Part shown: positions 2,392-35,547 of the stretch, in pieces
Position numbering within the stretch: position 1 is the first letter of the stretch
Layout of the letters: every line of letters begins with the position of its first letter
NCBI GenBank assembly: GCA_030612765.1
Contig: JAUWNG010000003.1
Coordinates: forward strand, 1-64,000
Reading direction: 5' to 3'
Length of the DNA: 64,000 nucleotides
Origin: Planctomycetota bacterium
Lineage (GTDB): Bacteria > Planctomycetota > Planctomycetia > Pirellulales > Thermoguttaceae
Notes under the pieces: generated by a model
Databases searched by the model: none
What the model was told of the DNA's origin: nothing
Seen by the model: the letters and a program-made list of their open reading frames with translations, nothing else
Position numbers and translations under genes: made by a program

Positions 2392-3624
2392 TCAGCCCGC
2401 CCGTCTCCGCCGCCAAACGCCGTAGCCGGCGGCAACCAAGCCCAGCAGCCCCCAGACGAAGATCGTGCCCGGCTCGGGAATTGGCGCGCTTAGCGGATTA
2501 CTCCAATCTACGTAGTCGCTGACTGCATCGCCCAAACTTCCAGCCGCGCCGTAAACTCCGCTAGGACCGAGGGGATCGCCCCACCAGTTGCTGAGGGCTG
2601 ATACTTCTACGGTAGAATAGTTGTAACAGCCGTATCCCGTGTTATCGTAAATGTTGTTGTGGTATATGTTGATGTTTGACGGTGTTCCATCAATCCCGAT
2701 ACCATTGCCGGTTCCATTATAGCCGTTCCATGTACCGCTATTGTTGTAGATTGTATTTCCAAAAACATCTACATTGGAGCAACCATCCTTGAGACTCAGG
2801 GCACCTATCGAATAGCCCTCCCCAGCGACGTTGGTAACGGTATTGCCGCTGATGGTGGCGTTGTCTGACGCAACGAAGCTGATGCCACCCTCACGAGCGC
2901 CATCGATAAAATTACCGGTGATGATGGCGTCTGGACAAGATGGACCGCACCAACCGGCTCCACCTACCCAAATACCGTGATCTCCCGAGTTCAGGACCAT
3001 GTTGTCCGTAATTGTCGCGCCGCTGGATCCCTTGGCGATGAACATTCCATCAGACAGATTGTTCTGAATCAGGCAGTTATGAACTGTCAAGTTCTGGTTG
3101 CAGTTTGCATACATCGGGTAGCAGTTATTCTGCGACTTGATGTTCTCGGCCGTGCAGCCGGCGTAGTAGACAAAACCTTCGACTTCCGTATCGTGGGCAT
3201 AATCGCGGAACAGGACACCGTAGCCCCAATAATTCACCGCACCAAAATTCTGAACCGTAAGGTTTTGGATGGTAACATTATCTGCCGTGGTATGGATGCC
3301 TTTGGCCCAAGCAGTAGTGCTGAGGCCACTACCATCAAGAATAACCCCGTCCCGGCTTTGACCTATTAATGTCAGGGATTTTTCGATTCTGACAAATGGA
3401 CTGCTTGGGGCATTGTAGGTTCCATCAGCTACGTCGACCGTCCCACCGGCGTCAACCATGTCAACGCCTTTTTGGATCGTCGCGTAGGGCGATGAAGAAG
3501 TCCCATCGCCTGTAAGGTCGCTGCCCGTCGTAGAGACGTAAATGTAAATGGCAGCGCGTGCGTCTGTGCCGAGTAGCAGGACCACTCCCACAAGCCCAGT
3601 CACCGCAATTATAGAACGTTTCAT
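2392..3624 (-). CDS. PEP-CTERM right-handed parallel beta-helix protein
   Basis: Signal peptide MKRSIIAVTGLVGVVLLLGTDARA; NVTIQNLTVQNF/ATITDNMVLNSGDHGI repeats; C-terminal IPEPGTIFVWGLLGLVAAGYGVWRRRR. Confidence 0.85.
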   Translation of the reverse strand: MKRSIIAVTGLVGVVLLLGTDARAAIYIYVSTTGSDLTGDGTSSSPYATIQKGVDMVDAGGTVDVADGTYNAPSSPFVRIEKSLTLIGQSRDGVILDGSGLSTTAWAKGIHTTADNVTIQNLTVQNFGAVNYWGYGVLFRDYAHDTEVEGFVYYAGCTAENIKSQNNCYPMYANCNQNLTVHNCLIQNNLSDGMFIAKGSSGATITDNMVLNSGDHGIWVGGAGWCGPSCPDAIITGNFIDGAREGGISFVASDNATISGNTVTNVAGEGYSIGALSLKDGCSNVDVFGNTIYNNSGTWNGYNGTGNGIGIDGTPSNINIYHNNIYDNTGYGCYNYSTVEVSALSNWWGDPLGPSGVYGAAGSLGDAVSDYVDWSNPLSAPIPEPGTIFVWGLLGLVAAGYGVWRRRRAG

Positions 3625-4261
3625 CTCAGTCTCTCCTGATTCTTTTCGGGCTGTTTCCCAGTTGTGTTCGCCTCGCCGTCGTCCCGCAAAGACGTTTCCG
3701 CGGCTGTGATTACTCCGGGAGGCGATACTGCATTTGTCTACAAGCATATAGACCGCCGAAGGCCGATTCCTGACAAGCGGAATAAAAAAAATCTTCTAAA
3801 ACCAAGAAAGTTCCTCCAGAGCACCTCTGCGGTGGGGAAAAAGGCGGTTTTTTGCCACCAATAGGGCGGGGTTTACCCCACAATCCGTTTGACAATTATT
3901 TTTGCGCTGGTTAGGGTAGATATTTCTGCTACCGAGCCGCTGCTCAATGAGCCGGTTGCGTGGTTTCTGGTTTCCGCACTCCGCGTCGGTTCCTTGCAAG
4001 CGGGGGAACGTCTTGTCGAGATAGGCGAACTTGTCGGGATCGAGAAAATTTTCAATCGTTGAGAGATCAAGGGGCTATCCGAAAACTGTGCGCCACTGCT
4101 TGCGGGTAAGCGGCGGTACACGGTGGTGGATACGGTGAGTACTCGTAGATGCAGGGACGCCCATGATGGACGCGCACGGACGGGCATATTGGAATGTGGT
4201 TGTCGCACGTGCTTTTAGGCCGCGTGTGCCACCCACGGGAACGGAGTGCGCCCTGAGGTCA

Positions 4262-4350
4262 AAAAAGAGGTCAGAGATCGGAGGTCAGAGAATTTCTGAT
4301 TTCTGATTTGCCTTTCCTGCCCTCTGACCTCTGCTCTCTGACCTCTTTTT
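4262..4350. repeat. Inverted repeat built from GAGGTCA-type heptamers
   Basis: 29-nt arms AAAAAGAGGTCAGAGATCGGAGGTCAGAG and CTCTGACCTCTGCTCTCTGACCTCTTTTT, 2 mismatches. Confidence 0.8.
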
Positions 4351-4360
4351 CGTCGGCATC

Positions 4361-5551
4361 GTGAAGTTGCACCAACGCAAGAGAAAATACCGGCCACCGC
4401 AAAAAATGAGGGGCCAGAGGCCAGAGGTCGGAGGTCAGGGACCAGAGGTCGGAGGCCAGAGGTCAGAGGTCGGAGGCCAGAGGTCAGAGGTCGGAGGCCA
4501 GAGGTCAGAGATCGGAGGTCAGGGATTAGAGGCCGGAGATCGGCAATCATCAATCATCAATCATCAATCATCAATCTCCTGGCCCCCGGCCCCCGTCGTG
4601 CTGGGCGGCGCGATTCTGGCGGCGGCGTTTGTTTGGGCGTACTGGCCTACGCTGGTCAGTCTGGTCGCCACGTGGAACCGCGAGCCGGACTACTCGCACG
4701 GATTCCTCGTCGCGCCGTTGGCGGTCTATTTTCTCTGGGTCCGGCGCGACCGGTTTCCGGGCGGAAAAGGGGACAGGTCCAATTTGTGCGTAGCACCCTC
4801 CGGGTCGTTCCGGCAAATTGGACCTGTCCCCTTTTCGTGGCTGGACGTTGTCTTCGGATTGGGCTTGATCGCCGCCTGCGTCGCCGCCCGGGCGCTGAGC
4901 GCGCACTTCTATCTCGACGCGATCGACGGCTGGTCGATTCTTCCGTGGGTGGGTGGAGTGGTGTTGCTGCTGGCCGGGCGGAAGGTGTTTTGGTGGAGCC
5001 TGCCGTCGATCGCGTTTCTGTGGTTCATGGTGCCGCTGCCGTATCGTGTAGAGCGTTGGTTGAGCCTGCCGCTGCAGGGAGCGGCCACCAAGCTGAGTTG
5101 TTGGATTTTGCAGGCCCTGGGGCAGCCGGCCTTGGCCGAGGGACACGTCATCTTCCTCGGCGATCACCGGCTGGAAATCGAACAGGCCTGTTCCGGCTTG
5201 CGAATTTTCGTGGGGATCGTGGCCTTGGCGTTCGCCTACGTGATCGTGGCGCGCCGGGCCTGGTGGGAGAGGGCGCTGTTGCTGCTCAGCGCCGTTCCGA
5301 TCGCCTTGCTGGCCAACGCCGCGCGGATCGTCGCCACGGGCCTGCTCTATCAATATGTTTCGGGAGAGGCGGCGAGGAAATTCTCCCACGACGGGGCGGG
5401 CTGGGTGATGATCCTGTTGGCCGCCGGGATGTTCGGGCTGGTGTTGTGGTACTTGTGTCGGCTGGTGCAAGAAGTCGAGTTGGTCGGAGTCGGCGACGTC
5501 GTTCGCCGGGAACGAGTTGGGTCGGCGGTGCAACGGCCGACCCGGCACTAG
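4361..5551 (+). CDS. Exosortase (transmembrane EPS-associated sortase)
   Basis: PDYSHGFLVAPLAVYFLWVRRDR; catalytic motifs EQACSGLR, NAARIV, FSHDGAG; true start uncertain because of the 5' heptamer array (GTG at 4598 possible). Confidence 0.9.
   Translation: MKLHQRKRKYRPPQKMRGQRPEVGGQGPEVGGQRSEVGGQRSEVGGQRSEIGGQGLEAGDRQSSIINHQSSISWPPAPVVLGGAILAAAFVWAYWPTLVSLVATWNREPDYSHGFLVAPLAVYFLWVRRDRFPGGKGDRSNLCVAPSGSFRQIGPVPFSWLDVVFGLGLIAACVAARALSAHFYLDAIDGWSILPWVGGVVLLLAGRKVFWWSLPSIAFLWFMVPLPYRVERWLSLPLQGAATKLSCWILQALGQPALAEGHVIFLGDHRLEIEQACSGLRIFVGIVALAFAYVIVARRAWWERALLLLSAVPIALLANAARIVATGLLYQYVSGEAARKFSHDGAGWVMILLAAGMFGLVLWYLCRLVQEVELVGVGDVVRRERVGSAVQRPTRH
4408..4575 (+). repeat. Heptanucleotide tandem array, 24 units (CAGAGGT/CGGAGGY then CATCAAT)
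   Basis: 168 nt divide into 24 consecutive 7-mers with no slippage. Confidence 0.9.
4764..4836. repeat. 73-bp palindromic element inside the exosortase ORF
   Basis: GAAAAGGGGACAGGTCCAATTTG ... CAAATTGGACCTGTCCCCTTTTC, 23/23 bp arms, 27-nt loop. Confidence 0.9.
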
Positions 5552-33534: not shown

Positions 33535-35433
33535 TCACTTATATCCCGGCAGGGCGAGGATGCGCTTCAGCAGCAACGCGCGCCGGCGAGATAAACGGGC
33601 GTCCGGAGGATAGCCGTAGCTGCCCACGAACTCGTTCCAGCCGATCCCTTCTTTCAATCCGCCCACCTCGGGCAGGAAATCCCCGACGGAAAAACTATCC
33701 TCCAGGCGGGATAGAGGTATCTTGCCTTTGCCGACGGCAACGGCAAACACGATGCCGGCCAGATCGGCCGACAAATCGGCGAAGCTGAACCCGCTGCCGC
33801 TGCGCATGTCGGCCAGTTCCTTGAGGATTCCGGCCCCTTCGGCGACCCGAGGGCCGACGAGAACCACCAGAGCGGCAGAGACCGCGAAATGCCGGAGCAA
33901 GTCGCGGCGGGCGTGCATGGTGGGGGCGCCGAGCACCGCCAGCCGCGCCGCCCGTTCGGAGGCCGACTCGAGCTGCGCCACGGAAGGGAACAGGGCCATG
34001 TCTTCGGCCCATCGTCTGTCCGCAAAAGGGGTTTCCACGCCGAAAAATGGACCAGTCCCCGACTGGTCCGGCAGCGGCGAATCGTTCAGGGCCACTCCCA
34101 ACCCCAGCAGAAATGCCGCTCCGGCAACCTCTCGGGGAAGTCGCCTGGCAGCAGCGGCAGCTTGGCGGACGTAGTACACGGTTAGCTCGTCCCCGTCCAG
34201 TCGGACTTGGCGCTCGGGGTCCAGGACGCCCTCACCCCCTGTTCCTTTCCCAGAGGGAGAGGGGAGTTTCTTGGGCAACTGCCGGTTTTTCTGGGCGGCC
34301 TTGGTCACTGCCCGCACCACGGTCCGCGCACCGGCGATCACGGCTTGGCAACGTCCGGGCAACTCCCCGGCCAATCCCAGCGACTGGTCGAGCATGGCCA
34401 AGTAGCGCGGCGCCGCCGAATCGCCCGGCATCGCGGCGGCGAGCGAGCGGTACACCGCCCGCAGGTGGTCCTTGGAGGCAGAGGGAAGCTGGCAAAGATG
34501 CATCAGCGGACGGGTACGGCTGCGAAGCTCTTCGCCCACCAGGAACATGGCGAGCGTGTTCGGGGCGTCGAACCCGATGCGGAAGGCGCGTGCCCGCGAT
34601 TGCCGGTCGCCGACATCGGGCCGCATCACGGACTGGTGCTCGGGCGAATGTACCGCGCCGAGGAAGTGCCCCAACTCGTGTACCAGCATCTCGAGCCGCT
34701 CCGGCTCGGCGAGTTGGCGGCCCCATTCGCGGATCAAGATGTGCGAGTGGAACGGGCCCCGTATCCCGCCCATGCGTTTCTCGTCTCGCAACGTATGGTA
34801 CTGGCCGGTGAAGCCGATCGCCAGCCGCGCCGGGGCCGGATTGACTTTTCGCTCGAACTCCTCGATGAACTGCCGCAACTCGCGGGCGCCGTCGTTGGAG
34901 GTCCAGACGCCGACCGCCACCACCTGAAAGCGAACCCGGCAATGTCGCTCGATGATCTCGGACGCCTCGGCCATCCGCTCCCGGTATCGCTTCTCCCACA
35001 CACGCCGCACCGTCGGCTCTTTGTCGTCGACCAGAATCTTGACCGGGATGGTACACAAGTCATCCCGCGGGCGGGAAAGCGGTTTCGGCATTGGCCGGTC
35101 GGCCGGAAGACCGGGAAGCGGATGTTGGACCAGATCGAGCTTATTGCCGTCGGTGTGGAAGTAGTAGATGCCGTTGGCCTGAAGCAGACGCCGTCGCGGC
35201 TCGCCACCGGCATTGAAAACGATGGTGACGGCGGCGGCAACGGGCACCGGAAGCACCTCGCCGCGATCCAAGCCGTGGCGGGTCTGCCGACCGTCTGGCT
35301 GGATGATGGTCAGCGCAACCTTGCCCTCCGCGCGGTTGGTCAGCACGACAACACCCGCACTGGCCGGCGACCAAAACGCCCCAGCCGCGACGACCAGTCC
35401 CATCGCGATCGGCAGCCCGCGGAGCATCATCAC
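33535..35433 (-). CDS. Secreted hypothetical protein with matrixin-like metalloprotease domain
   Basis: MLVHELGHFLGAVHSPEHQSVMRPDVG zinc motif; N-terminal signal peptide. Confidence 0.65.
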   Translation of the reverse strand: MMMLRGLPIAMGLVVAAGAFWSPASAGVVVLTNRAEGKVALTIIQPDGRQTRHGLDRGEVLPVPVAAAVTIVFNAGGEPRRRLLQANGIYYFHTDGNKLDLVQHPLPGLPADRPMPKPLSRPRDDLCTIPVKILVDDKEPTVRRVWEKRYRERMAEASEIIERHCRVRFQVVAVGVWTSNDGARELRQFIEEFERKVNPAPARLAIGFTGQYHTLRDEKRMGGIRGPFHSHILIREWGRQLAEPERLEMLVHELGHFLGAVHSPEHQSVMRPDVGDRQSRARAFRIGFDAPNTLAMFLVGEELRSRTRPLMHLCQLPSASKDHLRAVYRSLAAAMPGDSAAPRYLAMLDQSLGLAGELPGRCQAVIAGARTVVRAVTKAAQKNRQLPKKLPSPSGKGTGGEGVLDPERQVRLDGDELTVYYVRQAAAAARRLPREVAGAAFLLGLGVALNDSPLPDQSGTGPFFGVETPFADRRWAEDMALFPSVAQLESASERAARLAVLGAPTMHARRDLLRHFAVSAALVVLVGPRVAEGAGILKELADMRSGSGFSFADLSADLAGIVFAVAVGKGKIPLSRLEDSFSVGDFLPEVGGLKEGIGWNEFVGSYGYPPDARLSRRRALLLKRILALPGYK

Positions 35434-35547
35434 TTCGACCTCGATATGCGAAGATTCACGTAGCGTTCACGGGGTGTCCCTCTCGACACGCTTGGCGTCC
35501 ATTATACCATAGTTGCTTGGGGTCGTGGGCGGTGGTAGGCTGATGTC

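Follow-up and report, generated by a model that had tools for sequence, protein, structure and literature searches.

The stretch of DNA analysed here (64,000 nucleotides, hereafter the window) comes from a planctomycete genome and carries an exosortase gene of the EpsH family (PF09721, E 2.9e-60) that is interrupted by a large palindrome (Table 1). The arms of this palindrome at 4764-4836, GAAAAGGGGACAGGTCCAATTTG and CAAATTGGACCTGTCCCCTTTTC, are perfectly complementary over 23 bp and separated by 27 nt, and the reading frame stays open through the whole segment, which bears out an earlier sequence-only reading that had placed exactly such arms and loop in frame within an exosortase. As single-stranded DNA the segment folds at -29.7 kcal/mol, as compared to -8.9 on average for shuffled sequences (z -10), and the paired form of its third mini-hairpin is found in the sister species, G002. 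The position of the gene start is uncertain: the GTG listed in Table 1 is the only in-frame start found between 4541 and 4640, and the longest open reading frame begins at 4361, within repeats where indels separate G000, the window's genome, from its sister species. Immediately upstream of the exosortase gene, minisatellite-like GGTCAGAGGTCGGAGGCCAGA and ATCATCA repeats at 4255-4580 vary between the two species. A repeat-rich secreted protein with a C-terminal PEPGTIFVWGLLGLVAAGYGVWRRRRAG, a PEP-CTERM-like tail, is encoded on the reverse strand at 2392-3747; it lies next to the exosortase gene and is a probable exosortase substrate.

Table 1. Features of the interrupted exosortase locus (positions in the window; residue numbers count from position 4595, window:4595-5548).
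Feature	Position	Strand	Remarks
Exosortase (EpsH family), interrupted in frame	4598..5551	+	Profile match; start GTG 4598
Family-I palindromic element, in frame	4764..4836	+	Phase 0 relative to GGGGACAG; peptide KGDRSNLCVAPSGSFRQIGPVPF
Left arm GAAAAGGGGACAGGTCCAATTTG	4764..4786	+	GGGGACAG within the arm matches the TIRYT-repeat motif GGGGWSAS
Mini-hairpin TGC-GTA-GCA	4787..4795	+	
Mini-hairpin CCC-TCC-GGG	4796..4804	+	
Mini-hairpin TCG-TTC-CGG	4805..4813	+	One mismatch vs family CCG-TTC-CGG
Right arm	4814..4836	+	Perfect complement of the left arm
Invariant Cys codon, C199 (ACSGLR), presumed catalytic	5189..5191	+	Homologue alignment
Invariant Arg codon, R244	5324..5326	+	Homologue alignment
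Invariant His codon, H265 (SHD)	5387..5389	+	Homologue alignment

The size of the insertion was read from the spacing between the Pro of the RR-R-P motif and the next aligned motif, which is 28 residues in 57 of 65 open homologues and 26-32 in nearly all homologues other than the window exosortase and its sister, whereas these two have 51. The net insertion is thus 23 aa (69 nt), and alignment with exosortases that lack the insert, whose loop is shorter by those 23 aa, trims the earlier estimate of about 26 aa. That the peptide is a native segment of the exosortase, palindromic in its DNA by chance, might be argued from its presence at the same place in two species, but none of the 65 other homologues in the comparison has it and the same DNA occurs at dozens of unrelated places, which already refutes the idea and leaves it a probability close to nil.

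The three conserved residues downstream of the insert, whose integrity had been noted from the sequence, are present and invariant across homologues, and the insert is distant from them along the sequence. In an AlphaFold2 model pLDDT falls below 50 only at about residues 59-74, between confident helices at 36-49 and 82-105, and the remaining fold is predicted with high confidence; the insert peptide is predicted to be disordered and to join two membrane helices as a loop, in line with the loop position first proposed, and the positive residues that flank this loop suggest that it is cytoplasmic. Insertion into a membrane protein could be taken to mean that the gene is a pseudogene or has been inactivated, but the sister species has the insert at the same place with an open frame, the two genes differ by 9 synonymous and 3 non-synonymous changes (dS 0.037, dN 0.0043, dN/dS ~0.12), the conserved Cys, Arg and His are intact, and the rest of the fold is confidently predicted, all of which make inactivation very improbable and leave little of the pseudogene-like character that would undermine the earlier reading. 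The interrupted exosortase is presumably fully active.

A dispersed palindrome family and its phase in genes

The window palindrome is one copy of a dispersed repeat family. A genome-wide BLAST search and frame count, as the sequence-only reading had proposed, found the element repeated across the window's own genome (G000; 4.0 Mb in 228 contigs, 88% complete and, like all genomes compared here, a draft assembly), mostly within genes and in frame: 40 full-length copies were scored, and the 12-mer GGGGACAGGTCC has 109 exact occurrences as compared to 1 for its reversed control. An Rfam search with the element returned sub-threshold chance matches only. Copies are laid out as AAAAGGGGACAG, a variable stretch of 6 nt, TTTG, three mini-hairpins and a return arm. 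Nearly all of 38 aligned copies have AAAAGGGGACAG at their ends and AAAA/TTTT at the hairpin foot, and GGGGACAG is invariant in all 38, which had been collected by using that motif. The variable 6-nt stretch covaries between the arms, with 99% of cells paired and slid versions failing, and the number of doubly changed cells (81, as compared to 24.7 in shuffles) is reached by none of 500 shuffles. Cores of 81, 84 and 102 bp occur alongside cores of 63 bp, and cores of 83 and 86 bp alongside cores of 65 bp, in steps that are multiples of three; a few 64-bp cores occur in two genomes of other genera, G028 and G024. Two inverted arms and a core are found together, and it is this architecture, setting aside whether each arm is a REP hairpin in its own right, that invites comparison with REPINs.

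For 44 G000 copies picked by sequence alone, the 300 nt on either side were scored for codon usage with a model trained on the window. In 36 of the 44, one frame wins on both flanks and is open through the element, with stops in none; flank scores are weak in 9 of these 36, and 27 of the 44 are securely in frame, defined as at least 10 bits on both flanks. Random G000 positions lie in one open coding frame 60% of the time, and the excess for the element has a p of 0.002, or of 2e-18 if length is unconstrained. Most copies are internal to their host genes rather than at gene ends. The hosts recognized by Pfam are UvrD/PcrA (three), PheT (two), HemD (two), AIRS/PurL-like, PurF-like, Mur ligase, Xer-type integrase, FGGY kinase, SMC, ApbE, glycosyltransferase, histidine kinase, sigma-factor and MutS genes, and some of these belong to the essential gene set of most bacteria. 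MutS is a weaker example, since in G000 its gene (L027, G000:C212, near 753-840) has a frameshift around a different repeat, CCCCTCTCCCGTTGGGAGAGGGGCCGGGGGTGAGG, immediately ahead of the ATPase part; the gene is open in the sister species, and the G000 frameshift reflects either a broken gene or an assembly error.

A second G000 family of ~75 bp, which carries the same GGGGACAGGTCC motif and lies mostly outside genes, provides a built-in control that avoids genes, with 2 of 21 copies securely in frame as compared to the 27 of 44 for the element (Fisher p 1e-4). The window itself has a copy of this second family (GGGAACAGGGCCATGTCTTCGGCC...CGAAAAATGGACCAGTCCCC) at 33980-34062, within a reverse-strand ORF (33541-35466) that has a weak metallopeptidase match.

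No stop interrupts any of the six frames of the element's consensus, and 85 of 107 copies are equally open; the corresponding figure for mononucleotide-shuffled palindromes is 1.6%. Phases 0, 2 and 1 are used by 18, 17 and 1 of the in-frame G000 copies, respectively (p 9e-6), and by 26, 21 and 2 copies when all genomes are taken together with shared sites removed (p 8e-7). Stops fail to explain the scarcity of phase 1, since this phase is open in ~95% of copies. The peptide encoded in phase 1 has a Gly/Pro/Ser/Asp/Asn fraction of 0.17-0.22, as compared to 0.43-0.48 for the others, and a charge of +4 to +5. We infer that selection acting on the encoded peptide accounts for the phase bias, the alternative being an insertion-phase preference of the transposase. 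The great stability of the hairpin and its perfect inverted arms might also suggest that it is excised from the RNA or bypassed by the ribosome, giving a protein without the peptide; this was rejected on frame and phase grounds and is extremely improbable, because triplet net insertions, stop-free used frames and avoidance of an open phase are none of them needed if the hairpin is skipped.

Relatives, empty sites and selection

Besides G000, the element is present in two congeners (G001 and G002) and in further genera of the family; the host does not belong to the Rickettsiales, its nearest named record being the Planctomycetota MAG JAUWPQ010000031.1 and its other relatives mostly Pirellulales. 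Copies are securely in frame in 44 of 73 cases within the genus, in 6 of 7 in G034 and in 3 of 4 in G004. Three other genera (G028, G024 and G014) together have 1 of 23 copies securely in frame, most of them lying outside genes, and therefore the in-frame habit is not general for the element, with the proviso that the codon model was trained on G000 and the low figure could in part be due to a poor fit. G081 and G089 have matches to GGGGACAG, none of which is an element dimer, and G092 has one dimer-like match only.

The predominantly extragenic copies of these three genera lend weight to the view that the element is an ordinary extragenic REP or REPIN, whose intragenic copies are mere survivors that have no particular suitability for coding, with the frame kept because broken genes have been lost. 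These copies are also largely open in six frames, so that openness need not reflect selection in genes, and ~60% of copies would be expected in frame from coding density alone. This view is nevertheless unlikely, though by no means negligible, as the in-frame share in G000 exceeds that of random positions, the second GGGGACAGGTCC family in the same genome keeps mostly outside genes, and the phase is strongly non-random.

Empty sites were sought by searching the joined flanks of 38 copies against G001 and G002, and many of these queries have an empty counterpart there. Of 20 comparisons made automatically for intragenic copies, 17 show a net gain divisible by three (57 to 99 nt; manual count), and entries in which the same locus is compared in two species are not independent; the non-triplet gains are 64, 68 and 88, and the alignment edges are soft in these cases. 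A clean insertion of a single fixed length was rejected in view of this range of gains and the altered flanks. The bases that flank AAAA/TTTT are complementary over longer runs than in shuffles (mean 5.7 vs 3.3, with a maximum of 3.95 in 500 shuffles), and insertion into pre-existing palindromic targets was for this reason considered; it was rejected because the empty sites have no such palindromes.

At one PcrA insert G000 has HHRSLKSEKGTGPICAQHPKGRSGKLDLSPFPANDGAA, as compared to HHRSVAADGAA in G002, where the insert is absent. Other G000 and G002 loci with agreeing flanks differ in the core itself: an 84-bp core is exactly inverted between L086 of G000 and L294 of G002, and core lengths differ, with 63 as compared to 84 bp (L020/L293 and L011/L297) and 65 as compared to 86 bp (L025/L249). 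Hairpin-templated repair or gene conversion could have given rise both to core exchange and to the complementarity of the flanks. The pheT (L249) and hemD (L297) genes of G002 contain further unrelated in-frame repeat-like peptides, e.g., CLAAVGTTAKSGCKAVVPTTAKQSS, so in-frame repeats may extend past one family.

The interrupted genes are under purifying selection, with dN/dS of ~0.12-0.39 across six of them between G000 and G002. The dS/dN values are 0.175/0.055 for PheT, 0.127/0.026 for MutS, 0.136/0.026 for PcrA, 0.100/0.017 for a response regulator and 0.118/0.046 for HemD.

A candidate transposase and comparable systems

Y1 genes of 220-245 aa lie between perfect inverted repeats, ~700-800 bp apart, that resemble the GAAAAGGGGACAGGTCCAATTTG arm; these repeats are GAATAAACGGGACAGGTCTAATTA in G000, GGAAAAGCGGGACAGGTCCGGT in G002, AAAAGGGGCCAGGACCCTATTTGG and AAAAGGGGCCAGGACCCTATTTGGTA in G024 and AAAAAAGGTGACAGTCACCAAAT in G028. 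The loci with such homologous flanking repeats are L034, L218, L221 and L234, and their repeats are similar, not identical, to the element arms. The Y1 proteins, which include those encoded at G000:C16 and G002:C272, hit NF047646 (REP-associated tyrosine transposase) with scores under its cut-off. Some arm subtypes share the inner letters of the Y1 ends in the same genomes, i.e., GTCCGG in G002, GACCCT in G024 and TCACC in G028. A search for exact GGGGACAG ends beside Y1 genes yielded no flanking pair, and it was the search for any inverted repeat that succeeded; the arms of the window copy recur exactly at none of the Y1 genes found, the nearest G000 ends differing from them by several bases, and the element core was not found in the ends of transposase genes.

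RAYT-like transposases flanked by inverted repeats, several of them with GGGGWSAS, are known as TIRYT (Di Nocera et al. 2013, PMC3733652), and most TIRYT fall in subclass 2.1 (PMC6006769). The resemblance of the arms to the terminal repeats that flank RAYT-like Y1 transposases is what leads us to a TIRYT element. Shared with the TIRYT/TIRtron system are GGGGWSAS, Y1 genes between such inverted repeats and repeats dispersed as singles and dimers; in contrast, the available text of PMC3733652 does not describe GGGGWSAS repeats as in-frame gene inserts, and in the element a conserved core of three mini-hairpins lies between the two arms. GT[AG]G, by which canonical REPs are recognized at the hairpin foot, is not what the element has there (AAAA/TTTT).

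The sequence-only reading had likened the palindrome to the Rickettsia palindromic elements (RPEs), and the likeness holds for behaviour and fails for sequence. RPEs are short repeated palindromes of several kinds, many of them in frame in unrelated genes with the peptide tolerated (Ogata et al. 2000, 2002; PMC10969869, PMC3733652). The planctomycete element is likewise a dispersed palindrome in frame in many genes, but its sequence is unrelated, with GGGGWSAS arms and no CGTC tag, it belongs to a planctomycete lineage, and it measures ~70-110 bp as compared to ~150 bp for the first RPE. CGTC repeats "apparently lack a dedicated transposase" (PMC3733652), whereas the arms of the planctomycete element resemble transposase ends. 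Also comparable are the intragenic GTAG REP dimers of Opitutus terrae and others, which encode 20-30 aa and whose hosts include a UvrD/REP helicase (PMC3733652). These too are REP dimers in coding genes of a PVC-superphylum bacterium, with a UvrD/REP helicase host, but they belong to another repeat class, with a GTAG foot and a short stem, and a good part lie at gene ends, whereas the element is mostly internal. Perfect inverted repeats are also embedded in protein-coding genes of Nematomorpha mitochondria (PMC6649704); those are animal mitochondrial genes, and a dispersed mobile family goes unmentioned in the abstract of that paper. The literature searched, with most subscription journals outside it, holds no report of GGGGWSAS elements in frame in planctomycetes.

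How the element may live in genes

The best reading, which we consider likely, is that a TIRYT transposase serves a non-autonomous hairpin element and that genes tolerate this element in frame. It acts like an RPE without sharing RPE sequence; it fits best among the hairpin elements of the TIRYT class, and its in-frame habit in the window's genus is unusual. The element would be a MITE/REPIN-like non-autonomous hairpin with two inverted arms of 18-22 nt and three 3-bp mini-hairpins with 3-nt loops, and a Y1 (HUH) RAYT-like transposase most likely moves it as folded single-stranded DNA. Its insertions would fall both in and between genes. Because there are no stops in six frames and the core steps are mostly triplets, a fusion protein would be possible in most phases and in either orientation; purifying selection would retain only the frame-preserving copies, mainly in the two phases whose peptides are rich in Gly and Pro (KGTGPICRNGPKGASHKLDLSPF or KGDRSNLPERPEGCFAQIGPVPF types), and the insert peptides are presumably translated.

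More tentatively, and with doubt outweighing confidence, the element may itself be adapted to intragenic life: it would be kept stop-free in six frames, change its length by triplets, encode peptides that are soluble and flexible in two of the three phases, and flip or exchange its core in place with the frame unbroken. If so, an element of this kind would let a transposase generate protein loops. In-frame palindromes have been described so far chiefly as a Rickettsia peculiarity, with no known transposase. The planctomycete case offers many genes, a candidate transposase, congeners that differ by site and a gene-avoiding control family, and this system makes the addition of segments to working proteins by mobile DNA open to test.
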